A stretch of 34,777 bases of DNA from an uncultured Flavobacteriales bacterium (lineage in GTDB: Bacteria > Bacteroidota > Bacteroidia > Flavobacteriales_G > Salibacteraceae). Shown in pieces: positions 3,310 through 25,081 of this stretch (position 1 is the first letter of the stretch; each line of letters begins with the position of its first letter). Made by a program: the position numbers and the translations under genes. The notes beneath the pieces were generated by a model, which saw nothing but the letters and a program-made list of their open reading frames with translations, made no database searches and was not told where the DNA came from. The DNA lies in contig CALCCE010000048.1 of NCBI GenBank assembly GCA_937899835.1, positions 1 to 34,777 of the forward strand, read 5' to 3'.

Positions 3310-3641
3310 ATTTTTTTCAATTGAAACTACGGGTGGCCAACGCGGATGGTCCAGACATCCGAGTGGGAGGAGCAACATGTCATGGTGGTACATCCGCTCC
3401 AAAGCATATTTACAATTGGAAATTTAATTGAATCCAGCGCCTTGCTCCAAATCCATTGGGCAAAAAATGGTGCTTCAACCATGGAAATCCCCTCAAGAGA
3501 TTAATAATATGGCATGTCGAGCTGTTTCGAGTAGGCTTTAATCGCCCAAGCCACTTCCAACTGCATCCATCATTTGACCACGGGTTCTCATCTTCACGTC
3601 CCGCTCAATCCCGAACTTTGCCCCCACAAAGCAACCTGATC
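3310..3641. other. Divergent intergenic region between Roco gene and queA
   Basis: About 330 bases lie between the chosen starts of the two divergent genes. Part of it could be coding if an upstream start is used on either side: in-frame ATG at 3378 or 3393 for the Roco gene, or an open queA frame back to 3456. The residues these would add look unlike either family. I see no convincing promoter, hairpin or RNA. Confidence 0.4.
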
Positions 3642-8976: not shown

Positions 8977-9332
8977 GGGTTGACGGATGACATGAAATCT
9001 TCCCGCAATGGGCTAAACACATCAATGAGCATCCCTTTTTCGGTGCAAACACAACCATGCATCACGTGAGGCGGAATGTAAAAAGAGTCGCCACCGCGCA
9101 AGGTGCGGGTTTCATCGCCAATGGTCATTTCAAAGGTGCCGTCTACCACATAGGTTACCTGCGCGTGGTGGTGCTCGTGCATTTGGCCCACCCCACCGGC
9201 GTCAAACCGCACTTTCACCATCATGATCGAGTCGTGGTAGCCCACGATCTGCCGGGTGATGTGCTCGTCGATTCGTTCCCAAGGAATATCACTTTCAAGT
9301 AGAAATGGTGCGCTTTGCTGTGGAGTACTCAT
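8973..9332 (-). CDS. kdgF: KdgF-type cupin, unsaturated uronate to DEH/DKI conversion
   Basis: Small single-domain cupin of 119 residues. KdgF enzymes speed linearisation of 4,5-unsaturated monouronates released by alginate or pectin lyases to the open keto form used downstream. The metal site fits: His52, His54 and Gln58 in the MHEHHHAQ segment, and His92 in IPPHVMHG after the GGDSFYIPP strand. No signal peptide is present, so it should be cytosolic, acting right after uptake by the transporter encoded next to it. It starts six bases after the PL17 stop and overlaps the transporter start by four. Confidence 0.88.
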   Translation of the reverse strand: MSTPQQSAPFLLESDIPWERIDEHITRQIVGYHDSIMMVKVRFDAGGVGQMHEHHHAQVTYVVDGTFEMTIGDETRTLRGGDSFYIPPHVMHGCVCTEKGMLIDVFSPLREDFMSSVNP

Positions 9333-9338
9333 GGTTGA

Positions 9339-11507
9339 TTAGTTGATTTCGATTGAAAAAAATGGTCTATTTTTCGTAGGTAGGGCACTGTTGCCCTGGT
9401 AAGCGGTCACGGTGTAGGCAGAACCATCCGTTAGTGCGATTCGAATGTTGAGGTGTGCCGCTGCATAATCGGGTTGAAATTGCACGTTGGCAATGGGGCT
9501 ATAGGCTTGCTCGGTGCGTTCTGTCACCGCATCGTAGTGGCCATGAGCGGCCATCACACTCACCCAGGTTTGGTTTTGAGCCTCAGACCGGTAGATCAAA
9601 GCATTTTCCCGACGGAGGTTCTGCAAGGGATCGTTGGCGCCAATAGCCGCTTGCGTCACCGCAAAAGCTTGGTCAGATTGAGTGTGCACCGTAAAAAATC
9701 GTTGTTGGTCCAGTAGGGTGAAGGCAGCAGTGAAACTCGGTTCGCCAGTGCCCAGGTGCCATAAATATTGGTAGCCCTGCGCTTCGCCCAGCGGTTGGAG
9801 CAGGGCAGTAGCTTGTGGCACTTCAGGGCTTAAATGGATGCGCTGCGTGTGGTAATGAAAAGGCAAATCATAGGTGTGCGTTTGTGCACTGCGTGCCTGA
9901 TAAATGTCGATCAGAAAAGTGTGTTGCTCTGCCTGCACCAAGGCCACCGTGCGTTGCAAGGCCACACCCGGGTAGGCCGTGGTATCGGCAGCAGCAACCG
10001 CCTGAATACCATCGGAAAAGTATTCGAAAACCTGCCAGGGATGAGCTGCATCGGCCACTTTGACCTTGCCGGCGTGTTGCGGCATTTGGTCCACCACCAA
10101 AGTGTTGTGGGCAATGGTTTTTTGCGCATACAACTTGTTTTCGGCCAAATACCGGCCGCCCTCCTTTTGTGGAACATTGAGAAAACGTGCCGCTCCGTAG
10201 TCGGAAAGCAGCTCCCGACCATCGTCGTACACCAGCAAGCCAAGTTGATCGAAATGGCCATGGCCCATGCCATGGGTGCCGTATTTGAACAATACTTCGA
10301 GTCCGGTAGGGGCATTTTTTTCACGCAACACCGCAATGCCGCCTTGTTGACCCTTGGGGCCATCTTGCAGCACCACCGACTGCCGCTGAAACGGTGCCGG
10401 CGTGGCATCCAGGCCCACTACTGCATCCGTTAGCATCAGGTTGCCGTTGGATTCCATCAAGGAGATGAGGGCTTGGTTTTTTCCACCGTTGGCAAACCAA
10501 ACCGGCAGCGCAATGCCCAGTTCCGGGGTTTGAATGGTTTTGGATTTGATGGCATCGTTGATCGGAAAGAAGGCCCCACCCGAGGTGCTCATCTGAACCG
10601 TTGTTTCAATGGCCTTTAAAATCACGCCATCCCTAAAGGCAAACACCTTGCGCTCGGGCTGATTTTTTTCCAGGGCTTGCGCCAACAAGACCAGGGGCAT
10701 TAATGCGTAGCGTTGATAATAGGGGCCCTCGGCATAGTAACCGTCTGGCGAAAACAGCGATTCGATTTGTTTGAAAAAGCCACAATTGCCCGAAGGATCG
10801 GTGCCGTACAAGGCCTGTTCTACCAGTTCTGCCTTTTGCAGTGCCAAGCCCGTCATGCCCACACCGGCCACTGCCCACATGCCGTGGTTGTGAATACTGT
10901 TGAAAGTTTTGGAGGTTTCATCGCGGATAAATACCACCATGGGCAGCAGCAAGCCTTCTTCAATTTGTTGCTTTTCTTCGGCCGTTAAATCCGCTGCAAT
11001 GGCATCGTATGCCTGAATAAAGTGCACCAGGGCCACCTCCTCGTTGAGCACTTGCCAAAAGAGCTTGCCGGGTGCCTGCTTTTTGGCTTGTGGGTGGAGT
11101 GGGAGCGTAGGGTAGAGTTGAGCATAAGCTAAAAGCAACTCTTTGCAATAGGTTTTCGCTGCTTCGTTGCCATCGAGCAAATACCACGTGGCAGTAGCCA
11201 GTGCGTCTTGGTAATTCGCTTTGTGCTTCTCGTGCGTGAAGCCTCCGCCGGGGTCTTTGGGCACTGGTACCACCGGCTTCTGCTGCATGGCGCTCTCTGC
11301 CTTGGTTTGGAGTTGGTGCAAAGCGCGGTCGATCACCGGAGTGCCTTCCATCGCCCGAATGGCTTGCACACCGGCTGCAGTGAGCAACAGCCGTGGCCCC
11401 TCCTCGCCGTTGGCAGTAGCAACCGGCTGGTCTTGCACAGGTTGGTTGCAGGCAAGCCCACCCAACAGGAACAGCCCCAAGAAAACTATATGGAAAAAAT
11501 GCTTCAC
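9339..11507 (-). CDS. PL17 oligoalginate lyase, lipoprotein (alginate lyase + heparinase II/III-like domains)
   Basis: A 722-residue exo-acting lyase that releases unsaturated monouronate from alginate oligomers. The signal peptide ends in LLGGLAC with lipidated Cys20. An alpha/alpha-toroid N-terminal domain is followed by a heparinase II/III-like beta-sandwich from about residue 380. Catalytic residues known from Alg17c (Asn201, His202, Tyr258) line up at a constant offset of six: Asn207-His208 in HNHGMW and Tyr264 in GPYYQRYALMPL; a further conserved His cluster is HGMGHGHFDQLG near 413. The residues after Cys20 (NQPVQ) lack an acidic/Lys surface-export signature, so a periplasm-facing location is likely, in line with its job on imported oligomers. 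It lies 20 bases after the PL6 gene. Confidence 0.92.
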   Translation of the reverse strand: MKHFFHIVFLGLFLLGGLACNQPVQDQPVATANGEEGPRLLLTAAGVQAIRAMEGTPVIDRALHQLQTKAESAMQQKPVVPVPKDPGGGFTHEKHKANYQDALATATWYLLDGNEAAKTYCKELLLAYAQLYPTLPLHPQAKKQAPGKLFWQVLNEEVALVHFIQAYDAIAADLTAEEKQQIEEGLLLPMVVFIRDETSKTFNSIHNHGMWAVAGVGMTGLALQKAELVEQALYGTDPSGNCGFFKQIESLFSPDGYYAEGPYYQRYALMPLVLLAQALEKNQPERKVFAFRDGVILKAIETTVQMSTSGGAFFPINDAIKSKTIQTPELGIALPVWFANGGKNQALISLMESNGNLMLTDAVVGLDATPAPFQRQSVVLQDGPKGQQGGIAVLREKNAPTGLEVLFKYGTHGMGHGHFDQLGLLVYDDGRELLSDYGAARFLNVPQKEGGRYLAENKLYAQKTIAHNTLVVDQMPQHAGKVKVADAAHPWQVFEYFSDGIQAVAAADTTAYPGVALQRTVALVQAEQHTFLIDIYQARSAQTHTYDLPFHYHTQRIHLSPEVPQATALLQPLGEAQGYQYLWHLGTGEPSFTAAFTLLDQQRFFTVHTQSDQAFAVTQAAIGANDPLQNLRRENALIYRSEAQNQTWVSVMAAHGHYDAVTERTEQAYSPIANVQFQPDYAAAHLNIRIALTDGSAYTVTAYQGNSALPTKNRPFFSIEIN

Positions 11508-11527: not shown

Positions 11528-13858
11528 TTACAGGCTCCAGGTTTCCAGCTGTGCGGTGTTCATGGTGCGTGCCTGTTGCGTAATGCTCGATCGGTTTACC
11601 CGATGCTCATAAAAGGTTTGAATGCGACCTGACTCGTGAAGGTTGCAGCTTTCAATCACCACATCGGCCCACGCAGGATCTTCAAAAAAGATGCTGCGGC
11701 CACTGGCGCCCGATTGCACAAATTCGCAACGTGCCACCCGGGCGTATTGCACGCCCAACATGCGTACTACACTGCCCAACTCCTTGTTGTTGACATTGTA
11801 GAAATGGCAGTCCGAAACCCAGGCAAAAGGACCGGTAGTGCTTTCATCATTGCCACCGCGATACACATCGATGGCCATGCCCATCACGTTGGCAAACACG
11901 CAATTGTTTACCCGAATGTGTTCCACGTTGTAGCGTCCTCGGTCTTCTTTTTCGGCCGAAAACACAATGCCATGTCCCGAAAAGCCCTTGAACCAGCAAT
12001 TGGTTACCGATACGCTATCGGCAAAGGTGCTTTTGGCGCCATGCACACCTGCAAACCGCGATTCGTTGAAATCTGAAAAGCGGCAGCCGTCAACGTGCAG
12101 TTGGTAATGGTTGAGCATGGGCGCTACCGAAGTAATTCCGTAGCTGGCATCTCCTGCTTTGGAGCGGCCCGAAAAGTGCAGGCCTTGAATGTGGAGTTGC
12201 GCTCCATCGTGAATCTCAATCAGGCCGTGTTTTTTGAGGTTGGCCCCAGGCGCTACCAATGGAAAACCGCCCTTTGCCAATAGAAAAAGGTCTTTCTTCA
12301 CTGCCAAAGGTTGTTTTAGCGCCAAGCGGCTTTCCGCTGCAATCCAAAGCGTATCTCCAGGATTCAAATCGTCTACCACGGCTTGAATGTTATCGCATTC
12401 GGCCGCCGTTAGCAGCCGCGAGGTAGGCAAAGCCGTACTCGGTTTTTCGGTCAACGCGGCTTGCCACCAATGGGGGCCGGTTGCTGTGGCTTGCACCGGA
12501 AGTTGAGGTGCCGGTTGCCCTTTGATGGCCGGCAAGCCTTCCTCCGTGGTGTAGAGTTCCATGGCCGTGATCGAAAAGCCCGGCATGGCCGCGCCTTGAT
12601 TGATGGAATTGTCTTGAAAGCGAATGCCAGAAACATCGTCCAGTACCGTGATCTTCCAATCGTCCCGATCGGTATAAATGTGGTTGTTAATAAAAGCCGT
12701 GTTTTGCGGAAAGGCAGTGCGCTCCCGGTCAGCACCGGTTCCAAACGCCACCTCATCGCAATGTATAAAGGTGTTTTGGCTGATCGTAGCGTCTTTCACC
12801 TGATGGTAGCGGTTGATGGGAGAATTGGGTACCCCATTCATCACCGGGAGAGCCGCATGAAAGCGGTGTCCGGTTAAGCCCCAGAAGTAATTGTTAGTGA
12901 TGGTGTGGCCTGCATTGATTACCCGAATACCTCCGGTGTACGGCAGGTTTTTACCCAGAAAATAGTTGTTGGACAATACATTTCGGTTGCCGTGTCGTAG
13001 GGTAAGCACCCCTTCACAAGCGTGAAACACATTGCCCGAAATCTCGTTTTCGGTGGCCTTGATCGAAACAATTTCTACCTCCCCGTTGCAGCGGTCGAAA
13101 TAGTTGTTGTTGACTTTGACGTGAGCCGGAGAGAGGCTGAAAGCGGAGGACCCCACCCGCATGGTTTCCCCGCCATTCGACCCCATTCGGGAACGTGGCC
13201 CAAAATAATTGTGATCAATCTTACTGTAGCTTTCCTGGCTTTCCGGATGATTTAAGCGCACCACCAGGGTAGTACCCAAATTTTGTTTGTTGCCTAAGTA
13301 ATTGTGATCAAAGCGGTTGTGGTTGCCGTGAATTTCCACCCAGTGGTCCATCTCCAAACGGTGGGGCAACGAAAAATCAGTGATGCTACAGTGGCTTACC
13401 CGACAGTAACTGGCTTTGGTTTGGCCGTCCTCAGATTCAAAGGAAATAACTGCTCCCTTGGGCGAATGGCCATTTTGAAACCATACTCCCTCAAAAACAC
13501 CGTGTTTTCCCGAGAGGTAAAGTTTGGATTGCCCCGAAAAAATCACCTCACCGGGCGTTTGGGCACGTACTACCACAGGTTGGTCGGCGGTGCCTTCGGC
13601 TGCAAAGTGGAGTACAACATCTTTCCAGGTTCCATTAGGAATCACAAGGGTGTCGCCCGCCTGGGCTTCGTTCAGTTGTTTTTGCAATTGATCGAAAGCA
13701 CCCGGAGAGGCATCGGCGGGAGACTTCGGGGCCGAGCACCCGAAACTGCTAACCAGCAAAATCGACAACCCCACTCCGAAGCAGAGGAGCTGAGGTGAAG
13801 TTTTCTTGCGGAGCCTGGTGAAAAGAAAAGGAACTATAGTGTGAATCATTTGGTGCAA
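11528..13858 (-). CDS. PL6 alginate lyase, two-domain beta-helix lipoprotein
   Basis: A 776-residue polysaccharide lyase of family 6 (chondroitinase B-like), with right-handed parallel beta-helix sequence (repeated N-x-h-x-x-N-x-F ladders). The catalytic pair is intact: Lys267 in SIKATEN and Arg288 in LRHGNRN. Their spacing of 21 equals that of chondroitinase B (K250/R271) and AlyGC (K220/R241), and Glu260/Glu262 match the AlyGC calcium ligands E213/E215 at the same offset of 47. A second beta-helix region fills residues about 480-776, as in the two-domain exolytic enzyme AlyGC, which prefers guluronate; a similar specificity is an inference. The N-terminus has a long basic stretch, then a hydrophobic segment and lipobox ending in Cys41 (SSFGC); the start may be 13858 or the ATG at 13849. 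Confidence 0.92.
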   Translation of the reverse strand: MHQMIHTIVPFLFTRLRKKTSPQLLCFGVGLSILLVSSFGCSAPKSPADASPGAFDQLQKQLNEAQAGDTLVIPNGTWKDVVLHFAAEGTADQPVVVRAQTPGEVIFSGQSKLYLSGKHGVFEGVWFQNGHSPKGAVISFESEDGQTKASYCRVSHCSITDFSLPHRLEMDHWVEIHGNHNRFDHNYLGNKQNLGTTLVVRLNHPESQESYSKIDHNYFGPRSRMGSNGGETMRVGSSAFSLSPAHVKVNNNYFDRCNGEVEIVSIKATENEISGNVFHACEGVLTLRHGNRNVLSNNYFLGKNLPYTGGIRVINAGHTITNNYFWGLTGHRFHAALPVMNGVPNSPINRYHQVKDATISQNTFIHCDEVAFGTGADRERTAFPQNTAFINNHIYTDRDDWKITVLDDVSGIRFQDNSINQGAAMPGFSITAMELYTTEEGLPAIKGQPAPQLPVQATATGPHWWQAALTEKPSTALPTSRLLTAAECDNIQAVVDDLNPGDTLWIAAESRLALKQPLAVKKDLFLLAKGGFPLVAPGANLKKHGLIEIHDGAQLHIQGLHFSGRSKAGDASYGITSVAPMLNHYQLHVDGCRFSDFNESRFAGVHGAKSTFADSVSVTNCWFKGFSGHGIVFSAEKEDRGRYNVEHIRVNNCVFANVMGMAIDVYRGGNDESTTGPFAWVSDCHFYNVNNKELGSVVRMLGVQYARVARCEFVQSGASGRSIFFEDPAWADVVIESCNLHESGRIQTFYEHRVNRSSITQQARTMNTAQLETWSL

Positions 13859-13869
13859 CTAAAGCGCGG

Positions 13870-14592
13870 TTAAGCGTTGTTCGGTAAGTTTTCTACGATG
13901 TCTTTCAGGTGTTCTTCCATGTGTTGGGCAGCGTTTTGCGCGTCTTTGGCAGTAATGGCATCCATGATCGAGCGGTGCTCTTTCAAAGTGGCCAGTGCCC
14001 GGCCTTCCCCACACACGTCCTTGGTGGCATAATTATGCAAAATGTCAGGGGTGATGATCATCATAAGCGATTGCAATACCCCATTTTTGCTGGCCTCTGC
14101 AATTTTGAGGTGGAAGAGCAGGTCTTCATCAATGCCCTGTTGCCCCGCTTGAATTTTCGCTTCGTAATTTTCCAAAGCGCTGCGCATTTCCTGCAAATCT
14201 TCTTCCGATCGGCGAACGGCTGCCAATCGTGCCGTCTGCGTTTCTAATAAGTAGCGGGTTTCTACCAAGGAGGCAAAATCTTCGCGGTGCAACCCCAATA
14301 CGTTGGTGATCAAACCATCCAAAGCCGTTACGCCCAATCCCGATACCTGGGTGCCACTTTGCGGCATGGTGCGTACGATGCCGTAAAATTCCAAGCGCTT
14401 GATGGCTTCGCGCACGTAGCCTCGGCTAACTCCTAATTGCTCTGCCAGCTTCCGTTCGGGGGGCAAACGCATGCCCGGTTTAATTTCACCTGCGCTAATC
14501 AGGCCCTTGATCTGAGCAATGATTAGGTCTACAGGCGATTCCACCGAGATCTGTTTGAAGTTTTTGAAATATGCTGAATCGCCGTCAGCCAT
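13870..14592 (-). CDS. FadR/GntR-family transcriptional regulator 1 (AusR-like)
   Basis: A 240-residue regulator: winged helix-turn-helix at about 18-85 (RLPPERKLAEQLGVSRGYVREAIKRLEFYG, positions 43-72) and a helical FCD ligand domain from about 100 (ETRYLLETQTARLAA, DLLFHLKIAEAS, EHRSIMDAI, which carry the usual metal-binding Asp/His). FCD regulators usually repress until a carboxylate metabolite binds. In Zobellia the GntR-type AusR controls the alginate operon; a similar role, with DEH or KDG as inducer, is inferred. It is the first gene of the minus-strand catabolic operon, and two palindromic operators lie 15-41 bases before its start, so autoregulation is likely. Its recognition helix (SRGYVREA) differs from that of the paralogue at 17879 (GRTHLRDA). 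Confidence 0.9.
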   Translation of the reverse strand: MADGDSAYFKNFKQISVESPVDLIIAQIKGLISAGEIKPGMRLPPERKLAEQLGVSRGYVREAIKRLEFYGIVRTMPQSGTQVSGLGVTALDGLITNVLGLHREDFASLVETRYLLETQTARLAAVRRSEEDLQEMRSALENYEAKIQAGQQGIDEDLLFHLKIAEASKNGVLQSLMMIITPDILHNYATKDVCGEGRALATLKEHRSIMDAITAKDAQNAAQHMEEHLKDIVENLPNNA

Positions 14593-14606
14593 GAATAAAT
14601 GTTGAA

Positions 14607-14633
14607 TTGGTTAACCAAAAATTGGTTGACCAA
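14607..14633. promoter_or_regulatory. Paired FadR-type operators upstream of the minus-strand operon
   Basis: Two 12-base sites stand in tandem: TTGGTTAACCAA (14607-14618), a perfect palindrome, and TTGGTTGACCAA (14622-14633), palindromic except for its two central bases. Centre spacing is 15 bases. Both fit the TGGTnnACCA pattern known for FadR-branch GntR regulators. They sit just ahead of the regulator's own ATG, and the outer site overlaps a predicted -7 promoter element. Confidence 0.78.
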
Positions 14634-14659
14634 AAATAGAATAAAATTTCAATCGCCAA
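14631..14659 (-). promoter_or_regulatory. Predicted Bacteroidota promoter of the alginate catabolic operon
   Basis: On the minus strand, TATTTTTG (complement of 14631-14638) matches the Bacteroidota -7 consensus TAnnTTTG exactly. A TTG (complement of 14657-14659) stands 18 bases upstream as a plausible -33 element. The TTG end of the -7 box is shared with operator TTGGTCAACCAA, so a bound repressor would cover the promoter. The match was found by eye; the start site is not known. Confidence 0.55.
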
Positions 14660-14991
14660 CTAAACTCCATTGTTTTTACTACAAGTTCCTCATTAACAGT
14701 TATTTGTGGTGGAAAGCTGCTTTTCTTAATGCTTCCCTTTCGTGATTTTATTTTTTAAAGTGTTGATAAACAGATTGTTATGTTTTTTATGTGTATGTAG
14801 TAGGTGCGATAAAGGGGATGGTGACAAACGCCTCGTGCGTAGCCGCTGTTATAAGGTCTCCATTGAGGTTGAAATCACTGAATGAATTGATTTATAAAGG
14901 TTTTTGATCCGTTTGCGCTCCAAGCTTCACTAAGCGTCATTTTTACATTTATCTGGGTAGATATTTGGATAGCGGAAATATTTGACTTAAA

Positions 14992-15021
14992 ATTGGTCGA
15001 CCAATAAACTGGTCAACCAGT
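14992..15021. promoter_or_regulatory. Paired FadR-type operators upstream of the plus-strand arm
   Basis: ATTGGTCGACCAAT (14992-15005) is a perfect 14-base palindrome and ACTGGTCAACCAGT (15008-15021) is palindromic apart from its two central bases; centres are 16 bases apart. Both contain TGGTnnACCA, as do the sites at 14607-14633. They lie 49-78 bases before the ATG at 15070. An imperfect -7-like AATATTTG precedes them at about 14977-14984, too weak to call alone. Confidence 0.75.
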
Positions 15022-15069
15022 TAAATCTGGTAGCCCGTTTGATGAATTGTCGACCAACAGCACACATTT

Positions 15070-17874
15070 ATGCGATACCTACGTTTACTCAATCTGTTCT
15101 TCCTCTGTTTTCTCTCCGTTTCGGCCTTCGAGTCGTCGGTTCAGGCGCAAACCACCGCTACTATTGGTACAGGATCTTCCTCGTCCAGCACGCGTGGGCC
15201 TTTCCAACGGTCAGATACCAATTCTTCTACCGTCTACTCCCGCTTCGTGCATGTGTATACCGCCAGTGAATTGGCCAGTGCAGGGATTCCAAGTGGAGCA
15301 TCCATTACTTCCCTCAACTGGGAGCTGGCCTCCTCCAATGTGATTGTGGGTAGTGGTAATGCCAATTTGAGGATCTACGTTAAAAACTCCAGCGCAACAC
15401 AGGCGGTTCCTGGTTCTTGGAGCACACTGATTGGAGGCGCTACGCTGGCCCTCGATACCAATTTCAACACTACCAACAACTTTCCGGGGGCTAACGGTTG
15501 GATGCCTTTTGCCTTAGACAACCCCTTTACGTATACGGGAGGTGCGCTGGAAATTTCCGTGGATTGGGACTGCTCTCAGGTGTCTACACCAGCCTTTTCG
15601 GGCGATGGAGCGATCAAATGGCGGTGGCAGTCGACTTCGCCAGATACTACAGTGGTGAAAAAAACTTCTAGCTCGAGCCCTTCCTCCAACATAAGCGATG
15701 AAAAAACGGAGCGTGCCAACATTCAAATCGTATACAATGCCGCGGCTTGTGATCCACCCACTGCTTTGTATGTAGACAGTACTACCAGCACCTCCACCAT
15801 TTTGGGATGGATCGGTGCTACCAATGCCACTTCTTATAACTGGAAGGTAGTCCCCGCTGGTGCTGGAGCCAGTGCTCCCGCCATCGATTCGGGCGCTACG
15901 GCCAACACCACACAATTGGTCACTGGGCTCACGCCTTTTACTACCTATGATTTTTACGTGACTTCCGACTGTGGCACCATTGGAACGAGTGGCACTACTG
16001 GTCCGTTTGCGTTTATGACCCTGCCGGTGGCCACTACTACCATAACCATTGGCACGGGTTCTTCCTCTTCCAGCACCCGCGGTCCGTTACAGCGCTCAGA
16101 TACCAATTCTTCCACCGTTTTTTCGCGCTTTGTGCAGGTTTACAAGCCCAGTGAGTTGGCCGCTGCCGGCCTTTCTGCGGGTGATTCTCTTACGGCCTTG
16201 AATTGGGAGCTTGCCTCCTCCAACATCATTGCAGGTGCAGGCAATGCCTCTATTAAAGTGTACATCAAAAACTCAACCGATTCTGTAGCGGTATCCAACA
16301 ACTGGTCTACCTTTATTACAGGTTCTGCCCTGGTGGTAGACAACCTTTACAACACCACCAACAACTTTCCGGGAGCTAATGGCTGGATGGATTTTGAATT
16401 CAATCAACCTTTTGCCTACACGGGTGGTGCACTGGAAATCGCAGTGGATTGGGATTGTTCCACGGTATCCACTCCTGCTTTCGATGGCGATGGCGCTTTG
16501 AAGTGGCGCTGGCAGTCTACCGCTCCCGACGATCTGGTGGTCAAACGCACCGGAAGCTCTTCAGCTCCTACCAGCATTAGCGATGTGAAAGATGAGCGGG
16601 CCAACATTCAGATGGTCTACTCGCTCAACACCTGTGCGGTGCCGGTAGACCTGGTCGTGAGTAACATTGATTCTACCTCGGCTGCCATGAGTTGGAGCCC
16701 GGTAGTAGCAGCCGCCACGTACGATTGGAAAATTGTTCCGGCTGGTGCCGGGCCTATGAGTCCAGCGGTAGATTCAGGAACCGTTACCGGTGATACCAAT
16801 GCCACTACCACTGCGCTAATGCCCGGAACCTCTTATGATTTTTACGTGATTGGGGATTGTGGACCGATTGGTTCCAGCACAGCCAGTCTTCCTGCTGGTT
16901 TCACCACATTGTGTGGAAACGTAGCCGCTACCGTAGTTAGCGCTTCGGTCACCAATGTTAGTTGCAACGGCGGCAGCGATGGTGCCATCGACATTTCCAT
17001 CACTTCGGGCATTGCTCCCTATGATTTTTCATGGAGCTCCACCGACACTACCGAAGACCTTAGCGGTATCATGGCTGGTAATTATGCCTTGACCATTACC
17101 GATGGCAACGGGTGTCCTTCTTTTGATAGTGTAACGGTTACTGAGCCAGTTGCCATTGCCCTTTCTGCTGCTACTATAACAGATGTTTCTTGCAATGGTG
17201 ACAGCGATGGCGCTATTGATATTTCTGTTGCTGGGGGAGTGGCGCCTTACGCCTTTGCATGGAGCAATGCCGAAACTACTGAAGATATTACCGGAGTAGC
17301 TTCGGGTAGCTATACGGTGACCATTACCGATGATAATGGCTGTACGATTGTGGACAATGCCCAGGTGAATGAACCGGCTGCATTGGCCATTTCGAGCACG
17401 ATAGTTTCGGACACCAACAATGCCAGTGTGGGGGCTGCCACCGTATCGGTAACGGGTGGAACTCCTCCTTACGCCTATACTTGGGATGGCAATACGGGCG
17501 ATGCCGATTCAACCGGTTTGCCGATGGGTACCTACAACGTAGTTGTGACCGATGCCAACGGTTGCACCGAAAGCACAGACGTAGACGTGGATAACGTGGT
17601 AGGCATTGCAGCCCTTCGTGGTTTGGAACAGTTTTCCGTTTCTCCGAATCCTACCCAAGGCATCACCAACGTTGATTTATTGCTCCAACAACCTGCCGAA
17701 GTTTCAGTGGCGGTGTATTCCATTACTGGCGAATTGGTGGCCACCTACCCAGCAGCGAAAGTGAAGCAATTTCGACAGTCAATTGATTTGTCGGTTTATG
17801 GAGAAGGTTTGTATTTTGTCCACGTGAAAATCAACGATCAAGCCCTCACACACAAGATTTTTCTTTTAAATTAA
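15070..17874 (+). CDS. T9SS-exported modular protein (duplicated beta module, FnIII, SprB repeats)
   Basis: A secreted protein of 934 residues. A signal peptide (to about residue 26, SSVQAQ) is followed by two copies of a roughly 290-residue block. Each block is a Ser/Thr-rich beta module (27-225 and 322-517) plus a fibronectin type III-like domain with PAGAG...DSG...YDFYV (226-318 and 518-614). Next come three SprB-type repeats (about 615-850; VSCNGGSDGAIDIS...YTVTITDDNGC, the third less conserved) and a type A T9SS sorting domain (852-934; SVSPNPTQG...GLYFVHVKI). It is therefore probably exported by the type IX system and anchored or released at the surface. No catalytic motif is recognised; an adhesive or glycan-binding role is an inference from SprB/FnIII modules and the location. 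It shares an operon with regulator 2, four bases downstream, behind the operator pair at 14992-15021. Confidence 0.85.
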   Translation: MRYLRLLNLFFLCFLSVSAFESSVQAQTTATIGTGSSSSSTRGPFQRSDTNSSTVYSRFVHVYTASELASAGIPSGASITSLNWELASSNVIVGSGNANLRIYVKNSSATQAVPGSWSTLIGGATLALDTNFNTTNNFPGANGWMPFALDNPFTYTGGALEISVDWDCSQVSTPAFSGDGAIKWRWQSTSPDTTVVKKTSSSSPSSNISDEKTERANIQIVYNAAACDPPTALYVDSTTSTSTILGWIGATNATSYNWKVVPAGAGASAPAIDSGATANTTQLVTGLTPFTTYDFYVTSDCGTIGTSGTTGPFAFMTLPVATTTITIGTGSSSSSTRGPLQRSDTNSSTVFSRFVQVYKPSELAAAGLSAGDSLTALNWELASSNIIAGAGNASIKVYIKNSTDSVAVSNNWSTFITGSALVVDNLYNTTNNFPGANGWMDFEFNQPFAYTGGALEIAVDWDCSTVSTPAFDGDGALKWRWQSTAPDDLVVKRTGSSSAPTSISDVKDERANIQMVYSLNTCAVPVDLVVSNIDSTSAAMSWSPVVAAATYDWKIVPAGAGPMSPAVDSGTVTGDTNATTTALMPGTSYDFYVIGDCGPIGSSTASLPAGFTTLCGNVAATVVSASVTNVSCNGGSDGAIDISITSGIAPYDFSWSSTDTTEDLSGIMAGNYALTITDGNGCPSFDSVTVTEPVAIALSAATITDVSCNGDSDGAIDISVAGGVAPYAFAWSNAETTEDITGVASGSYTVTITDDNGCTIVDNAQVNEPAALAISSTIVSDTNNASVGAATVSVTGGTPPYAYTWDGNTGDADSTGLPMGTYNVVVTDANGCTESTDVDVDNVVGIAALRGLEQFSVSPNPTQGITNVDLLLQQPAEVSVAVYSITGELVATYPAAKVKQFRQSIDLSVYGEGLYFVHVKINDQALTHKIFLLN
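15151..16911 (+). repeat. Internal duplication of an approximately 870-bp coding block
   Basis: Bases 15151-16023 and 16033-16911 encode two copies of the same unit. Shared landmarks are IGTGSSSSSTRGP, QRSDTNSSTV, NWELASSN, NTTNNFPGANGWM, YTGGALEI, VDWDCS and IKWRWQST/LKWRWQST. The protein copies are clearly more similar than typical domain homologues, while the DNA has drifted at many third positions, which points to an older duplication kept by selection. Confidence 0.85.
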
Positions 17875-17878
17875 TTCG

Positions 17879-18631
17879 ATGGAAGTTCTTAACAATTTCT
17901 CTCAAATCGTATTTGATACTCCGGTTGATCAAATCATCAAGCAAATTCGGGATTTGATTTCATCGGGTCAGTTGAAACCTGGAGACCGTTTACCTTCCGA
18001 AAGGCAGTTGTCCGAACGCCTCAACGTGGGCCGGACCCACCTGCGGGATGCCATTCGCAAACTGGAGTTTTACGGGATTTTGAAGACTGTTCCTCAAAGT
18101 GGAACGTATGTGGCAGGCTTGGGCATTCCTGCGTTGCAAGGTTTGATCACCGACATGCTGGCCTTGCAAGGCAACGATTTTAAATCGTTGGTCGAAACAC
18201 GGGTGATTCTGGAAATGAACACCGCCCGGTTGGCTGCCGAACATCGTACCGCTAAAGACCTGAAGGAAATGGAGCAGGCGCTCCACCAACATCGGTTGAA
18301 AGTGCAGAAAAACCAGGATGCAGTGGACGAGGATTTTCTTTTTCACCTCAAAATTGCCGATTCGAGCAAGAACTCGGTGTTGAAGTCGCTCATGCTCATC
18401 ATTGCACCCGACATCATGCAGTATTTTAAGAAGCATGATGTCTGTGGAGCAGGAAGGTCTGATGTGGCGGTGGATCAACACGAACAGTTGCTGCAACACA
18501 TTGTAGAAAAAAATCCAGACAAAGCGGTAGCATCTTTGTTGGCACACCTCGATGGAATTAGCGAATACGTAAAGCACCTCAAAGAAGACGTTTACCTAAG
18601 TGATCGCGGATTCTTATCCAACAGGCCCTAA
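17879..18631 (+). CDS. FadR/GntR-family transcriptional regulator 2
   Basis: A 250-residue paralogue of the regulator at 13870-14592. The winged helix (PVDQIIKQIRDLISS... then RLPSERQLSERLNVGRTHLRDAIRKLEFYG, about 38-66) is followed by an FCD domain (ETRVILEMNTARLAA, DEDFLFHLKIADSSKNSVLKSLMLIIAPDIMQY). The C-terminus carries a short extra tail. Similarity to regulator 1 runs over nearly the whole length (PQSGT.V.GLG..AL.GLIT..L.L...DF.SLVETR), so both should sense related ligands, but the recognition helix differs (GRTHLRDA versus SRGYVREA). It starts four bases after the T9SS protein and lies 269 bases ahead of susC. Whether it opposes, backs up or forms mixed dimers with regulator 1 cannot be read from the sequence. 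Confidence 0.9.
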   Translation: MEVLNNFSQIVFDTPVDQIIKQIRDLISSGQLKPGDRLPSERQLSERLNVGRTHLRDAIRKLEFYGILKTVPQSGTYVAGLGIPALQGLITDMLALQGNDFKSLVETRVILEMNTARLAAEHRTAKDLKEMEQALHQHRLKVQKNQDAVDEDFLFHLKIADSSKNSVLKSLMLIIAPDIMQYFKKHDVCGAGRSDVAVDQHEQLLQHIVEKNPDKAVASLLAHLDGISEYVKHLKEDVYLSDRGFLSNRP

Positions 18632-18900
18632 TTTCAAATGAGTGCACTACTTGGTCGATGGCTTGTTCATCAAGGGTTTGGATAGCCTTGTAGGCAACTA
18701 TGTTGTTCTCCAAAAGCATTGGTTCCTTCCATTTAAAATCACCTTAAAAAACCGCTTGTTTTTAGCGGGATTGGCGCTTAAAAAGCGTCATCCACAAGCG
18801 ATTTAAACGAAGCAGTTTGTTACTGCATACTTGGCGGATATTGTCTCAGCTGTTCCGTTTTTGACCAGTTAAGGCCGTTTTTTTCATTCTATAGTTTACC
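18632..18900. promoter_or_regulatory. susC leader region with two small hairpins
   Basis: A 269-base gap before susC. It has two adjacent stem-loops, CCGCT(18752-18756)/AGCGG(18764-18768) and CGCTT(18775-18779)/AAGCG(18783-18787). Half-operator-like strings TTGGTCGA (18651-18658) and TTGACCAGTT (18861-18870) share text with the FadR-type sites upstream, but neither has a good second half. The hairpins could end the regulator transcript or structure the susC leader; no clean T-run follows. Confidence 0.4.
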
Positions 18901-21900
18901 ATGATGAATCGAAAAGAGTTGATACAATCACGATTAGTTTCATGCTTTTATATGGCAGTACTGATGCTGCTCACCTGTCACGTTCAGGCGCAGGAGCCAA
19001 CACCTGCGCAAGCGAAGAATATCACCATTTCAGGGGTGGTGAAAGGAGATGACGGTGTCACGATTCCCGGAATCAATATTGTGGTACAGGGTACTTCTAT
19101 TGGTACTTCTACCGATATGGATGGTAAGTATTCCCTATCTGTCCCCCCAAACGCTACATTGGAGATATCAGGAATTGGTTTCAAAACCCAGTTGGTGGTG
19201 GTTGAAAACCGTACTAAAATCGACATCACCCTAAGCGAAGACGTTGAAACGCTTGAAGAGCACGTGGTGGTGGGTTACGGCACGGTAAAAAAATCGCATT
19301 TCACCGGAGCCGTTTCCAAAGTACAGGCTGAAAACCTGGATCAAATGCCCCACTCGCGGGTAGATGATGCTTTGGTAGGCCAAATGTCGGGGGTAACGGT
19401 ACAACAAACCAACCCTGCAGCGGGGGAAGCACCAGTGATGCGGGTACGTGGACAAGGGTCTATTTCTTTTGATTCCAATCCTTTGATTGTGTTGGACGGA
19501 ATTGTGGTCGGAAATGACGGTGATTTCCTTTCCAGTTTGGACATGAACGATGTGGAATCGATAGAAGTGTTAAAAGACGCTTCTTCTGGTGCCATTTACG
19601 GTTCACGCGGGGCCAATGGTATCATCATGATCACCACTAAGAAAGGGGTAGAAGGTCCCACCAAATTTTCTTATCACGGCTACCTGGGCTATAAGGATGT
19701 TCCTAAAAACGATTATTTATCGAGCCCCGACGAGTGGAGCAATTTTGTGCGGGAAAACAACGGTGGAGAGCTCACCGACCGTTTGAATTACATCAACCAA
19801 TTGGGGACTTACACGGATTGGGAAGATGTGATGTTTGATGGCGGCTTCATTACCAGCCATTCGCTATCGGCTAAGGGAGGTACAAAGAATACAAAATTTA
19901 CTACTTCGTTTGGCTATCAGCGCGATGAAGGCGTGTTGTTGACCGACAACTTTGAAAAGATCAACTTCCGGGTGAACATGAATACCAAGTTGCGCAACCG
20001 GGTAACCTTGGGCCTCAACCTCAACCCTTCCCACACGAACCAACGGCGTTTTCCGATCGGGGTGCACGATGCCATTCGACAAAACCCTTGGTTGCCCCTT
20101 TATTTGGATGAAACCAACATTCAATACGTCAACCGCTTTCGCGAGAACGGGCGGTGGGCTGATGCACAAATTGGGGACTATGCCATGGAGCGGATGTTCG
20201 ACGATTACGACCTGTTGTTGGGGCAACCCGATCCTAACCTTTCTGGTGTCGATATCTCTTCTACTTCCAATCAAAATGCTTTGGCTAAAGTGTTGGAGCG
20301 CGACCGCAGAAAACGGCAAACCAAGGTATATGCCAATACCTACCTCAAGTTTGACATCATGGATGGGCTGTATTTCAAGCAAACTTTCGGAGGGGATTTT
20401 CGCTACACCAGCAACACCCGTTGGGCGGGGGTAGAGGCCTCCCGAAACGGAATTGGCGACACCGAGTCTACCCTCAGCACGCAAATTCGCTGGCATACCG
20501 TGAATGAAAGTATCCTCAACTACAAGAAAAAATTTGGTGATCATAGCCTCAATGCGATTGGTGTTTTTGCCTACGAGTGGTGGTCGAGAGAGCAAACGGG
20601 TTTGGAGGCTGCTGGTTTTGATAATGATTTGATCCAAACCATACCGCAAGCCAACCTGGTGAACGGTTTCAGAGAAGAATACCGTGAAAATTTGATTTCC
20701 TATGTTGCCAGAGCCACTTACGACTACAAAGAGCGCTATTTGCTGTCGGCAAGCATTCGCCGGGATGGTAGTTCTAAATTTGGTTTGGATTCTAAATACG
20801 GGTGGTTTCCAGCGGTTTCTGGCGGTTGGATTGTCAACAAAGAAAACTTCTTTCCCGAAAACAACATTCTGACCCGATTAAAGGTACGGGCAAGTTATGG
20901 CGTTACGGGCAACAACTCGGGCATTAATGAGTACGAACATTACGGCTTGCTCGTGCCGGTAGGAACTGGTTTTGGCCAAAACGGATACAACCCGTTTAAC
21001 GTTGCTTCTCCCAACCTTGGGTGGGAGAGCCTTACCGAGTTCAATCCTGGTTTGGATATGGCGTTCTTGGGCGGACGCGTCAACCTGTTTTTCGACTACT
21101 ATGTAAGAAACAGTGTAGACCTCTTGTTGGATGTTCCCATTCCCTCGGTAGTAGGATTTGATGAGGCCCTTGAAAACCGCGGTAAAGTGCGCAATGAAGG
21201 GGTGGAGTTTGAATTGTCGACCAAAAACTACATTACCAAAGATTTCTCCTGGACGTCTACAGCCACTGCCACCCACAACAAGAATACCTTGGTGGATTTT
21301 GCCGGGGCTGACGGGTTAATCAGCATCGTTGATGACAAACGCCCGGCGGAATGGATCGCCAAAGAAGGACAGCCGATTTCTTCTTTTTATGGGTACGTTG
21401 TGGATAAGGAAATTCCACTGGAATACATCAACAATCCTTACTATCCCATCAATGCCCAATCGCAAGATATCTACGTGCGCGACTTGAATGGCGATGGGGT
21501 GATTGATCCCGATGACCGTACTATTTTGGGCGATCCCTATCCGGATTTGGTGTGGAGCGTCACCAACAATTTTAAGTACCGCAACTTTGATGCTTCTTTC
21601 ATGGTGCAAGGCTCTCACGGGGCTGAGGTGCGCAACATTTCTTCGCAATACATCAAAAACGAATTTTCCAGCAATCAGGACTACACCACTGAGTTTGCTG
21701 ATGCCAATCTGGTAACGGAGCGGATTTTTACCAACGACGATATTCAGGACGCTTCTTATGTAGCGCTTCGCAACATCAATGTAGGGTATTCCTTCTCTAA
21801 AAAAGCCATGCAAAAGGCTGGTATCCAGCGGTTGCGGCTTTACGTATCGGCTACCAACCTGATTTACGTTTGGTCAGACGATTATGAAGGCTACAATCCT

Positions 21901-22005
21901 GAAGGAATTGATCAAGGTTTGCGCAACCCGCTGACCTACGGTTATCAACGTGGACCCGCTCCCATCTACCGCGCTTACACATTTGGTTTGAACCTCGATT
22001 TTTAA
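18901..22005 (+). CDS. susC: SusC/RagA-family TonB-dependent outer-membrane transporter
   Basis: A 1034-residue TonB-linked beta-barrel that imports oligosaccharides with the SusD lipoprotein as lid; alginate oligomers are the expected cargo here. Order: signal peptide (to about residue 30, CHVQAQ), a carboxypeptidase-D regulatory-like domain (ISGVVKGDDG...GKYSLSVPPNATLEISGIGF, about 42-115), the EEHVVVGYGTVKK box, the plug with IVLDGIVV and SIEVLKDASSGAIYGSRGANGIIMITTKKG, then the barrel ending in YTFGLNLDF with a terminal Phe. Length is normal. The start may be 18901 or the next codon (ATGATG). susD follows after 10 bases. The operon probably includes the PKD protein and the three PL7 genes. 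Confidence 0.95.
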   Translation: MMNRKELIQSRLVSCFYMAVLMLLTCHVQAQEPTPAQAKNITISGVVKGDDGVTIPGINIVVQGTSIGTSTDMDGKYSLSVPPNATLEISGIGFKTQLVVVENRTKIDITLSEDVETLEEHVVVGYGTVKKSHFTGAVSKVQAENLDQMPHSRVDDALVGQMSGVTVQQTNPAAGEAPVMRVRGQGSISFDSNPLIVLDGIVVGNDGDFLSSLDMNDVESIEVLKDASSGAIYGSRGANGIIMITTKKGVEGPTKFSYHGYLGYKDVPKNDYLSSPDEWSNFVRENNGGELTDRLNYINQLGTYTDWEDVMFDGGFITSHSLSAKGGTKNTKFTTSFGYQRDEGVLLTDNFEKINFRVNMNTKLRNRVTLGLNLNPSHTNQRRFPIGVHDAIRQNPWLPLYLDETNIQYVNRFRENGRWADAQIGDYAMERMFDDYDLLLGQPDPNLSGVDISSTSNQNALAKVLERDRRKRQTKVYANTYLKFDIMDGLYFKQTFGGDFRYTSNTRWAGVEASRNGIGDTESTLSTQIRWHTVNESILNYKKKFGDHSLNAIGVFAYEWWSREQTGLEAAGFDNDLIQTIPQANLVNGFREEYRENLISYVARATYDYKERYLLSASIRRDGSSKFGLDSKYGWFPAVSGGWIVNKENFFPENNILTRLKVRASYGVTGNNSGINEYEHYGLLVPVGTGFGQNGYNPFNVASPNLGWESLTEFNPGLDMAFLGGRVNLFFDYYVRNSVDLLLDVPIPSVVGFDEALENRGKVRNEGVEFELSTKNYITKDFSWTSTATATHNKNTLVDFAGADGLISIVDDKRPAEWIAKEGQPISSFYGYVVDKEIPLEYINNPYYPINAQSQDIYVRDLNGDGVIDPDDRTILGDPYPDLVWSVTNNFKYRNFDASFMVQGSHGAEVRNISSQYIKNEFSSNQDYTTEFADANLVTERIFTNDDIQDASYVALRNINVGYSFSKKAMQKAGIQRLRLYVSATNLIYVWSDDYEGYNPEGIDQGLRNPLTYGYQRGPAPIYRAYTFGLNLDF

Positions 22006-22015
22006 TACGAACATC

Positions 22016-23377
22016 ATGAAGTACTCTATTTTTTTCCTGGCGTTTGTCATTGTATTGGGGGCTTGCAGCAAAGACCCCTTGAATCAGGAACCCATTTCAC
22101 AAATCAGTGAAACACAGTTCTACAACTCGACTGAAGAATTGGAATGGGCTACCATTGCTATCTATGATGGTTTGCAAGATGTGCCCTTGCGTGAGTTTGC
22201 CATCACAGAGATGCGTTCGGACAATGCTCGTTCCAACTCGGGAGAGGGCGATTGGGGGCAGTTCGATAGTTGGACGGTACGTCCGACCAACCAGCAGGTG
22301 GGCACCTATTGGACGGTGAACTACAATGTGATCTTTAGGGCCAACCGGGTGCTGGAAAACCTGGATGCCGTTGATGTGCCTTCCTTGAAACTGCAATTTG
22401 AAGGCGAAGCGAAATTTTGCCGGGCTTTGTCCCATTTCAATTTGGTGAGGGCTTATGGGGATATTCCTATTCTGGACCGGGAAATTGAACGAGACGAATC
22501 GGAATTCTTTGAACGCGACCCGGTTGCGGAAGTGATGGCGTTCATTACCCAAGACCTGGAAGAGGCAGCGATGCTGTTGCCTGCAAAAGGAGCCTTGGTA
22601 TTTGGTAGGGCTACTTCCGAAGCTGCCAATGCCTTGCTGGCAAAGGTGTACCTCAACACCGGTAACTACAGCGGAGCCGAATCCATTTTGGCGTCTTTGA
22701 TTGCCAATCCAAACTATGCGCTGGAAGAAAACTATCGGGATGTGTTTTACAGTGAGGGCAACGATGAAATCATTTTTGCCATTCCTTACATCAACGACGA
22801 TGGTAACGAAAGCCAGGATTTCTCTTTTGAGATGACGGCTGGTGGAGTTCGCAGTGGCTTGAATTACTTGACGGATGATTTTATCGCCAACCTCATTCCC
22901 AACGATGCGGAGCGTTTACCGGTGCTTCAAAACTCTGACAACCTGGAAGAGAACGGAAAATTCATGACCACCAGTTCAGATGTACGCTTGTGTGGCAACG
23001 ATTGGATTGTCTTGCGGTTGGCCGATGTTTATTTGCTCCACATAGAGGCCATTATGGCCGGCCAATTGGCGACCCAAAACCTGGATGCCATTGCTTCCTT
23101 CAACGCCATTCGTGGCCGGGTAGGATTAGATTCTGTAGCCATGGACGGTACCGGAGAAATTACCTTAGATATGCTGTTGAACGAAAGGCGGTACGAGTTG
23201 GCTTTTGAAAACCACCGGCTCTACGATTTGATCCGCACGGGACAGGCACAAACGGTGCTCACCAATTTTGGCAACAACGAAGGCTATCTTTTCTCCTCTA
23301 CCGATTTGCTTTTGCCTATCCCACAAGGTGAAATCAATGTAAGTGGCGGATTGTTAAGCCAAAACCCAGGGTATTGA
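22016..23377 (+). CDS. susD: SusD/RagB-family nutrient-binding outer-membrane lipoprotein
   Basis: A 453-residue surface lipoprotein that pairs with SusC and binds the glycan. The signal peptide ends at LGAC with lipidated Cys17, followed by SKDPLNQEP, whose Lys-Asp right after the Cys resembles Bacteroidota surface lipoprotein export signals. The N-terminal ISETQFYNSTEELEWATIAIYDGL, the middle GEAKFCRALSHFNLVRAYGDIPIL, and the C-terminal NERRYELAFENHRLYDLIRTGQA with LPIPQGEINVSGGLLSQNPGY are standard for the family. On the small side but complete. Specificity for alginate comes from context, not from the sequence. Confidence 0.95.
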   Translation: MKYSIFFLAFVIVLGACSKDPLNQEPISQISETQFYNSTEELEWATIAIYDGLQDVPLREFAITEMRSDNARSNSGEGDWGQFDSWTVRPTNQQVGTYWTVNYNVIFRANRVLENLDAVDVPSLKLQFEGEAKFCRALSHFNLVRAYGDIPILDREIERDESEFFERDPVAEVMAFITQDLEEAAMLLPAKGALVFGRATSEAANALLAKVYLNTGNYSGAESILASLIANPNYALEENYRDVFYSEGNDEIIFAIPYINDDGNESQDFSFEMTAGGVRSGLNYLTDDFIANLIPNDAERLPVLQNSDNLEENGKFMTTSSDVRLCGNDWIVLRLADVYLLHIEAIMAGQLATQNLDAIASFNAIRGRVGLDSVAMDGTGEITLDMLLNERRYELAFENHRLYDLIRTGQAQTVLTNFGNNEGYLFSSTDLLLPIPQGEINVSGGLLSQNPGY

Positions 23378-23425: not shown

Positions 23426-25081
23426 ATGAATCAATTGACTGTTAAGTATCCTTATCGTTTGGTTGTTGGTCTAATCGCCCTATTAGTTACCGTATGGGGA
23501 TGTCGGAAAGATTTACCCGAAGCAGGGTCTATTGAGGACCTTACTCCGCCAAGTGCTGCTTTTGATTTCGATCAGTTTTCACCAGACAATTACCTGGAGG
23601 TGACTTTTTCGAATCAATCTACCAGCTCTACCGACTACTTATGGGAGTTTGGCGATGGTGCTACTTCTACCGAAGCCGAGCCGGTACACGTGTATACAGC
23701 CGATGGAACTTATACCGTGAAATTGACCGCCAGCGATAAATTGGGGGTCAATAGCGTGAGTGAACAAACCTTTACCCTTACAGAGCCAGCCGCTTTCATT
23801 CCTCCCATTCTCGAAGCCAGCTTCGAAGACGGCCAGCTCGACGGTGGTAGTGGTGACGGAAGGGATTCCTGGCGGAATTCTGACTTGGGAGGCGTGATAC
23901 AAATCACCAGCGATCCGGTGAAATCGGGCGATCAGGCAGCTAAACTTACCGGCGATCCCAGCGATAAGCGCATTGGTTTTCAGCAATTGACGGTAACTGA
24001 AAACACGGTGTACGATGTGTCTTTCTTTTATACCATGGAAGACGATCAGCCCGGTTCATTGACTGTATCGATCTTAAGTGGTCCGGTGACGAGCCATGCC
24101 GAGGCGTTGGCAGCTACCATTGGATCGGTGACGGTAAACGATCAATCGGACCCGAAAAATTTCACACGTGGTACGGTGTCGTTCTTTTCGGGCGCCAGCA
24201 CTGAGGTGGCCGTCTACTTTTTCAACGATGGTTCAGTAGAAACCCGCTTGGATGACTTCTCTATCGATATTGGCCAAGGTACCATTCCTCCAACAGCGGC
24301 TTTTACCCATGCGAAAGATCCTGGAAATTATTTGCAAGTAGACTTTACCAATACTTCCATCAATGCCACCAGCTACGACTGGGATTTTGGCGATGGCAAT
24401 ACGTCTACTGATGCTTCTCCAACCCATACTTACGCCATGGATGGTAGCTACACCGTTACCTTAACCGCCAGTAACCCGGCAGGAGAAATGGATGTAGCCA
24501 TGTCTACCATCAATGTGAGCCCACCCAGCAATGTGATGATCACCAATCCAAGTTTTGACAACGAGCCGGTGCGGGATGACAACCGTGTTGATTGGCGTAA
24601 TCAAGATCTCGAGGCAGATGCGAATGTGGTATTTGGAGCTTCTTCCTATGTGCTTCAAACATCGAGCACGGCCCGTACTGGCGATTATGCAGGCAAACTA
24701 CCTACCATGGAAAACTCGTCGAGTCCCCGCCGGTGGTTGTACCAAGCGGTGACGGTAGACCCGAATACCGACTACAAAATCAAAGGCTGGATTCGAAACA
24801 AAGATGGGGGTGTAGGTTCCACGGTGACGTTTGCCATTTACGATGCTCCTTTTTCTACTGCATCCACCATTGGCGATCCTACGGCCATTCTTGCTTCCGA
24901 AGATTACGATGCTTCTACCGGACATGATACGGATACATGGACAGAGGCCAGCATCACCTTCAATTCGGGATCAAGTACCGAAATTGTATTGTTTATTACC
25001 AATGACTATACGCTAAACGGAGATCCAAGTACCGAAGAGTCGGAAACCTTTTTAGACGATTTTTCCATTGAAGAATTGTAA
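23426..25081 (+). CDS. Surface glycan-binding lipoprotein with two PKD/CBM-like modules
   Basis: A 551-residue lipoprotein (lipobox VTVWGC, Cys26, followed by RKD as in SusD). It is built from a doubled unit: PKD domain 1 (about 40-118; YLWEFGDGATSTEAEPVHVY), a carbohydrate-binding-like beta-sandwich (about 122-286; SFEDGQLDGGSGDGRDSWRN), PKD domain 2 (about 287-367; YDWDFGDGNTSTDASPTHTY), and a second beta-sandwich (about 370-551; NPSFDNEPVRDDNRVDWRNQD). Both sandwiches end alike (LDDFSIDIGQ and LDDFSIEEL). This is the position and style of SusE/SusF-like surface glycan-binding proteins, and PKD-containing proteins of this type are usual beside susCD in alginate loci. It should hold alginate at the cell surface. 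No lyase motif is seen. Confidence 0.85.
   Translation: MNQLTVKYPYRLVVGLIALLVTVWGCRKDLPEAGSIEDLTPPSAAFDFDQFSPDNYLEVTFSNQSTSSTDYLWEFGDGATSTEAEPVHVYTADGTYTVKLTASDKLGVNSVSEQTFTLTEPAAFIPPILEASFEDGQLDGGSGDGRDSWRNSDLGGVIQITSDPVKSGDQAAKLTGDPSDKRIGFQQLTVTENTVYDVSFFYTMEDDQPGSLTVSILSGPVTSHAEALAATIGSVTVNDQSDPKNFTRGTVSFFSGASTEVAVYFFNDGSVETRLDDFSIDIGQGTIPPTAAFTHAKDPGNYLQVDFTNTSINATSYDWDFGDGNTSTDASPTHTYAMDGSYTVTLTASNPAGEMDVAMSTINVSPPSNVMITNPSFDNEPVRDDNRVDWRNQDLEADANVVFGASSYVLQTSSTARTGDYAGKLPTMENSSSPRRWLYQAVTVDPNTDYKIKGWIRNKDGGVGSTVTFAIYDAPFSTASTIGDPTAILASEDYDASTGHDTDTWTEASITFNSGSSTEIVLFITNDYTLNGDPSTEESETFLDDFSIEEL

Follow-up and report, generated by a model that had tools for sequence, protein, structure and literature searches.

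In the literature consulted, alginate utilization loci of Bacteroidota are described with one regulator of the GntR type. In Zobellia galactanivorans, this is AusR, a GntR-family protein encoded inside the alginate locus, which is reported to bind single, double, or triple operators (PMC7874173) and to be released from DNA by alginate breakdown products (PMC7874173, PMC8286568). In Escherichia coli, ExuR and UxuR are described as paralogous GntR autorepressors that cross-regulate each other, with heterodimers reported (PMC9369180). This is the nearest studied pair to the one described here. It belongs to a different phylum and serves the hexuronate pathway rather than alginate. The exuR and uxuR genes are not known to flank a common control region as a pair. 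Among titles and opening abstract lines, with few subscription papers covered, none dealt with a pair of AusR-like regulators in a single alginate locus. Whereas one regulator is reported for the AusR locus, the locus analyzed here has two, REG1 and REG2.

The window, a stretch of 34,777 nt, is one whole contig (C48) of a 6.9-Mb assembly comprising 307 contigs. Its alginate locus consists of two arms that diverge from a 477-bp region (14593-15069). The genes are given below in the order in which each arm is read from that region.

13870 to 14592, minus strand: REG1, an AusR-like regulator of the GntR/FCD type at the head of the minus arm, assigned from domain matches and conserved FCD metal ligands
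11528 to 13858, minus strand: PL6-type lyase (Chondroitinas_B), separated from REG1 by 11 nt
9339 to 11507, minus strand: PL17-type oligoalginate lyase (Alginate_lyase plus Hepar_II_III_C)
8973 to 9332, minus strand: KdgF-like cupin
7711 to 8976, minus strand: MFS transporter
6927 to 7694, minus strand: SDR, probable DEH reductase, function from gene context
5799 to 6833, minus strand: KDG kinase-like PfkB kinase
5128 to 5898, minus strand: KDPG aldolase, ORF as listed, with the true start probably about 35 codons further in
15070 to 17874, plus strand: T9SS-exported surface protein with SprB repeats, fn3, and a T9SS type A tail, at the head of the plus arm
17879 to 18631, plus strand: REG2, an AusR-like regulator of the GntR/FCD type, starting 4 nt past the T9SS gene
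18632 to 18900: gap between REG2 and susC, 269 bp, with small hairpins
18901 to 22005, plus strand: SusC
22016 to 23377, plus strand: SusD
23426 to 25081, plus strand: PKD-domain surface protein
25097 to 26059, plus strand: PL7-type alginate lyase (Alginate_lyase2), copy a
26052 to 26861, plus strand: PL7-type alginate lyase, copy b
26863 to 27678, plus strand: PL7-type alginate lyase, copy c

REG1 had been placed at the head of an intracellular catabolic arm. It does lead the arm, which starts with two lyases (PL6-like and PL17-like) before kdgF and is therefore not purely intracellular. The surface protein between the two regulators matched SprB repeats, one fn3 domain, and the T9SS signal Por_Secre_tail in Pfam; by eye, it contains two similar N-terminal units, with fn3 and SprB repeats. 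Since REG2 starts 4 nt past the stop codon of the T9SS gene, the two genes probably share one transcript, as judged from their spacing. A T9SS protein with SprB repeats likewise precedes the regulator-susC pair of another locus (L108, genome G477). Elsewhere in the window, the three PL7-type lyases are directly followed by a TPR histidine kinase (HisKA_3) and a LuxR-type response regulator (27967-30857), a possible further control layer, and a ROCO-type (Roc-COR) protein that contains leucine-rich repeats runs off the contig end on the minus strand (1-3402). No Rfam family matched anywhere in the window.

Both regulator ORFs are intact. Each encodes an N-terminal GntR winged helix (Pfam, 65.6 bits for REG1 and 68.1 bits for REG2; cut-off, 27) and a C-terminal FCD domain (89.7 and 84.5 bits; cut-off, 24.3), which places both proteins in the FadR/FCD subfamily of the GntR superfamily. 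They are 51% identical to each other and are the sole FCD proteins found in the 6.9-Mb genome. Thus, what the preliminary description saw in this alginate locus, two paralogous FadR-type regulators with a T9SS protein between them, is borne out, positions included. In addition, REG1 and REG2 group in trees with regulators of other alginate loci; Maribacter L029, a stand-in for the Zobellia AusR, shares 42% identity with REG1 across the aligned length. All NCBIfam matches shown were far below cut-off and gave neither protein a curated name. For example, REG1 and REG2 scored 82.3 and 73 bits with the UxuR model (curated cut-off, 442) and 56.9 and 68.9 bits with the ExuR model (curated cut-off, 396), so that neither qualifies as an ExuR or UxuR equivalog.

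The recognition helix strings SRGYVREA (REG1) and GRTHLRDA (REG2) were present as first described. However, the accompanying view that the helices differ while the ligand domains are similar was the wrong way round: 44 of 74 positions are identical in the winged-helix part (59%), against 62 of 128 in the FCD part (48%). The ratio of the two identities, 1.23, is typical of the family (1.18; standard deviation, 0.12). With 52% of FCD positions differing, the effectors of REG1 and REG2 could differ. An AlphaFold model of REG1 as a single chain had a mean pLDDT of 68, which did not suffice for comparing pockets. Seven FCD residues were invariant in 90/90 relatives as well as in REG1 and REG2: D157, H161, H206, and H228, which we take to be the Asp/His metal ligands, and R113, E117, and C194. 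Of the 74 conserved positions (the same in at least 90% of relatives, with 90 relatives counted and 17 distant rows dropped), 6 are altered in REG1 and 8 in REG2, compared with up to 9 and a median of 1 among the relatives. On these sequence grounds, neither regulator looks dead, and both appear to be on the diverged side.

The following operator sites were predicted in the window.

14607 to 14618: predicted operator O1a, TTGGTTAACCAA, 10/10 match
14622 to 14633: predicted operator O1b, TTGGTTGACCAA, 10/10 match, 15 bp from O1a
14993 to 15004: predicted operator O2a, TTGGTCGACCAA, 10/10 match
15009 to 15020: predicted operator O2b, CTGGTCAACCAG, 8/10 match, with core TGGTNNACCA as in the others, 16 bp from O2a
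15046 to 15057: degenerate operator-like site, ATTGTCGACCAA, 8/10 match, doubtful

The region 14593-15069 contains three exact TTGGTNNACCAA palindromes, which form two tandem pairs when CTGGTCAACCAG is counted as the fourth. The pairs lie at opposite ends of the 477 bp, O1 adjoining the start of REG1 and O2 upstream of the T9SS gene. Palindromic operators in tandem at both divergent genes are as expected of an AusR-type system, a comparison made at the level of arrangement. O2b ends in CTGGT/ACCAG, unlike O1; as O1 and O2 differ in detail, their affinities for REG1 and REG2 may also differ. Genome-wide, TTGGTNNACCAA occurred 38 times in 6.9 Mb (control, 16), and 3 of the 38 were in the 477-bp region, where about 0.003 would be expected at the genome rate. 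Outside the window there were 35 exact sites, and the surroundings of 19 were read: 16 were inside ORFs of more than 150 amino acids and 3 were not. Among the YR-centred sites of this set, only one, belonging to the latter 3, was close upstream of an ORF, 29 bp before a MutS_V protein. The tandem motif TGGTNNACCA-N(2-12)-TGGTNNACCA matched twice in the genome, both times in 14593-15069 (reversed control, 1).

When the whole window was scanned for palindromes at 9/10 or better, none was found in the gap between REG2 and susC (18632-18900). A half-site-like TTTGACCAG near 18860 is no palindrome and was rejected as a hidden operator before susC. The fold of this gap was not more stable than that of shuffled sequences (z = -1.17). 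The -7 promoter element of Bacteroidota is TAnnTTTG; a scan of the control region did not find it.

It had been proposed that the different helices recognize separate DNA targets. The operator was therefore surveyed by helix class in 107 related regulators plus REG1 and REG2, as palindromes at 9/10 or better within about 400 bp upstream. An operator was found for 42/50 regulators of the REG1-like class S..E, 22/29 of the REG2-like class G..D, 14/16 of class S..D, 4/5 of class G..E, and 8/9 with a helix pattern that was not matched, compared with 1.9% for single-base shuffles; these counts include distant outgroup rows and REG1 and REG2 themselves, and, since the sequences are kin, they cannot be treated as independent. 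The operator assigned to REG2 is on the far side of the T9SS gene, outside the stretch scanned. The consensus half-site was TTGGT in every helix class. In longer loci (regulators with at least 1.5 kb downstream, L022-L029 and L092-L171, distant ones excluded), 70/74 had an operator, with neighboring sites 15 bp (36), 16 bp (7), or 14 bp (4) apart. As a common operator precedes every class, the change from SRGYVREA to GRTHLRDA is within the range that leaves the half-site unchanged, and the survey rejects different operators for different helices. Separate targets are also at odds with the window, where both operator pairs are in one divergent region and no site at 9/10 or better precedes susC. 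On sequence grounds, REG1 and REG2 seem to share a single switch rather than to be two separate ones.

The next same-strand gene after the regulator was SusC for 46/74 related regulators with enough downstream DNA. Thus, the position of REG2 directly before susC, noted in the preliminary description, is the usual order, and REG1 is the extra copy, although in the window the T9SS gene separates the operator from REG2. The REG1 order, regulator-PL6-PL17-KdgF-MFS, was also found in L124 (G558) and L137 (G690). The window joins two such regulator-led operons back to back.

Some regulator-susC gaps elsewhere contain short ORFs 47 to 87 nt after the regulator stop (L093, L094, L100, L120, L122, L126, L134, and L142). 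These end in serine-stop or NSY-stop (MKNSS, MSSKKINSS, MSSSNFNSS, MKLKHPVNSS, MNPNRNTS, and others) and were found in 8/20 long gaps, compared with a mean of 1.3 in Markov shuffles, 0/300 of which reached 8; the pattern was found after looking, and some of its loci are close kin. By eye, hairpins seem to come after some of them. They are possibly leader peptides controlling susC, and none was seen in the window.

Even sampling of the phylum (395 genomes) gave 17 genomes with a match, and two copies were found in the window's genome only. Eight genomes found via named records had one regulator each. A different result was obtained in 398 Saprospiraceae-type genomes (the family of one matching MAG, Saprospiraceae by its record): 116 had a match, 31 had two or more, and 19 had two close copies (both with E <= 1e-100); only part of the places matched in the 398 genomes were taken on to locus analysis. 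Both copies were on one contig within 40 kb in at least 7 of the 19 (G610, G638, G659, G660, G694, G749, and G766), a lower bound because contigs were short. Thus, the view that known operons carry one regulator holds for most genomes searched but not for Saprospiraceae-type loci.

The copies of six genomes (G478, G610, G694, G708, G749, and G766) formed two groups, A and B, in the 109-row tree and again in the 48-row tree, which is what a single old duplication retained to the present would predict, to judge by the sequences. Most A and B copies have the same upstream operator, the exception being the A copy of G708 (L141), which has no site; six A and six B sequences showed fixed differences in only three alignment columns, one of which is within the FCD domain. 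Because six other genomes kept the old pair, keeping two regulators is probably useful, at least sometimes. Recent duplicate pairs were recognized by tree in G638, G660, G757, and G448. In G659, as in the window, one copy precedes PKD-SusC-SusD and the other precedes PL17-MFS-KdgK-KdgA. Going by sequence comparison, then, AusR-like regulator pairs with a seemingly unchanged operator recur in Saprospiraceae-type bacteria. The MAG loci of G749, G694, G766, G610, G659, G660, and G638 resemble the window in having two AusR-like regulators per alginate locus and the same operator; their pairs come from duplications other than REG1/REG2, and none showed the head-to-head layout with a T9SS gene. A more distant regulator group in Saprospiraceae-type genomes (L131, L133, L136, L144, L150, and L152) clusters with Flavobacteriaceae-type copies and may serve another uronate; three members (L133, L136, and L152) are located after SusC-SusD and before an SDR.

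The regulators were found in 1/42 sampled genomes of the host order, the window's own. Among sampled members of the host family, FCD proteins and PL7-type lyases were each found in 1/35 genomes, again the window's own only. As neither was found in sampled kin, an origin of the locus outside the host lineage is suggested. Trees were built from 109 rows, from 103 rows (six long rows dropped), and from 48 rows hand-chosen to represent clades. In the last, careful tree, REG2 grouped with L028 (99/86), REG1 joined these two (97/78), and all three were inside Saprospiraceae-type regulator sets (95/87, 98/84, and 97/93). By these sequence trees, REG1 and REG2 appear nested among Saprospiraceae-type regulators, on long branches (1.31 for REG1, the longest, and 0.9 for REG2). 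L028 (573-1313), REG2's nearest tree relative, comes from a MAG named Candidatus Azobacteroides and sits beside housekeeping genes near the end of the stretch analyzed; in that stretch, no alginate gene was recognized and no palindromic operator was found.

A phylogeny had been suggested for deciding between duplication and separate acquisition. A fresh tandem duplication is unsupported, given 51% identity and the grouping of REG2 with L028; an old duplication and separate arrival are both compatible with the AU tests. A sister group of REG1 and REG2 was not rejected (p = 0.298; p = 0.971 with the larger tree, a quick one whose free search missed a better topology), nor was a placement of REG1 outside the set REG2, L028, L114, L115, L120, and L122 (p = 0.084). 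The probable origin of the pair is a meeting of two regulator-led operons, or of two diverged copies of a single regulator, in a locus that probably reached the host lineage from Saprospiraceae-like bacteria.

Based on the computed genes, domains, operators, conservation, and trees, the best explanation, which we consider somewhat more probable than all others together, is that REG1 and REG2 are AusR-type autorepressors with a shared operator code that cross-control the two divergent arms. REG1 would lead a REG1-PL6-PL17-kdgF-MFS-SDR-kdgK-kdgA operon, and the T9SS gene, REG2, susCD, the PKD gene, and the three PL7 genes would be cotranscribed as a second, divergent operon. The single, double, or triple operators of AusR match the tandem O1 and O2, and REG1 and REG2 are therefore taken to be autorepressors acting on both. 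Without alginate, dimers of REG1, of REG2, or of both mixed would bind O1 and O2 and keep both arms, together with the regulators' own genes, repressed. An alginate-derived 2-keto-3-deoxy sugar acid would then bind the metal-containing FCD pocket as effector and free the regulators from DNA. REG2 and susC would be governed from O2, upstream of the T9SS gene, via a long transcript and not by a susC operator.

The preliminary description favored split control, in which REG1 acts on the catabolic arm and REG2 on the uptake arm via different sites or metabolites. Part of it stands: there are two paralogues, each leading one arm, with a similar layout in G659, and ligand domains just 48% identical, as well as an old A/B pair kept by six genomes, would suit regulators with distinct tasks. 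As a whole, the reading is mostly unsupported, and separate DNA targets have no support, because the same operator is found upstream of all helix classes and of the long-kept paralogues A and B, and because no operator at 9/10 or better is present in 18632-18900. Moreover, A and B differ by just three fixed columns, one in FCD, and the S/G helix residue, which also differs between them, does so in a roughly reversed relation to the arms. We consider split control improbable. Ranked just above it, though still unlikely, is simple redundancy, in which an operon merger left two interchangeable repressors, one of them being lost or having no particular role. The operon types of the two arms do occur separately elsewhere, and the recent duplicates of G638, G660, G757, and G448 make second copies look easy to gain; on the other hand, both ORFs are intact, with metal ligands and most conserved positions kept, and a separate tandem operator is present for each arm. 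REG1 has a longer branch than any other of the 48 close relatives in the careful tree, which might suggest that it serves another sugar acid or pathway and is in the alginate locus by chance. This is very improbable, since REG1 is 11 nt before PL6, heads a lyase-catabolic operon, and has tandem family operators right upstream, with no other tandem operator in the genome.

Lineages that keep two regulators with an unchanged operator offer a natural test of the use of a second same-code repressor, and the conserved tandem operator predicts alginate regulons in uncultured Saprospiraceae-type MAGs. A speculative extension, which we regard as quite doubtful, is that the pair acts as a ratio device through mixed dimers or mixed occupancy of REG1 and REG2 on the tandem operators. 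If this is true, the ratio of REG2, from the surface and uptake operon, to REG1, from the catabolic operon, would report the balance between uptake and catabolism and would set the repression strength of both arms. On this view, the alginate loci of Saprospiraceae-like bacteria would have retained or re-acquired such pairs more than once.
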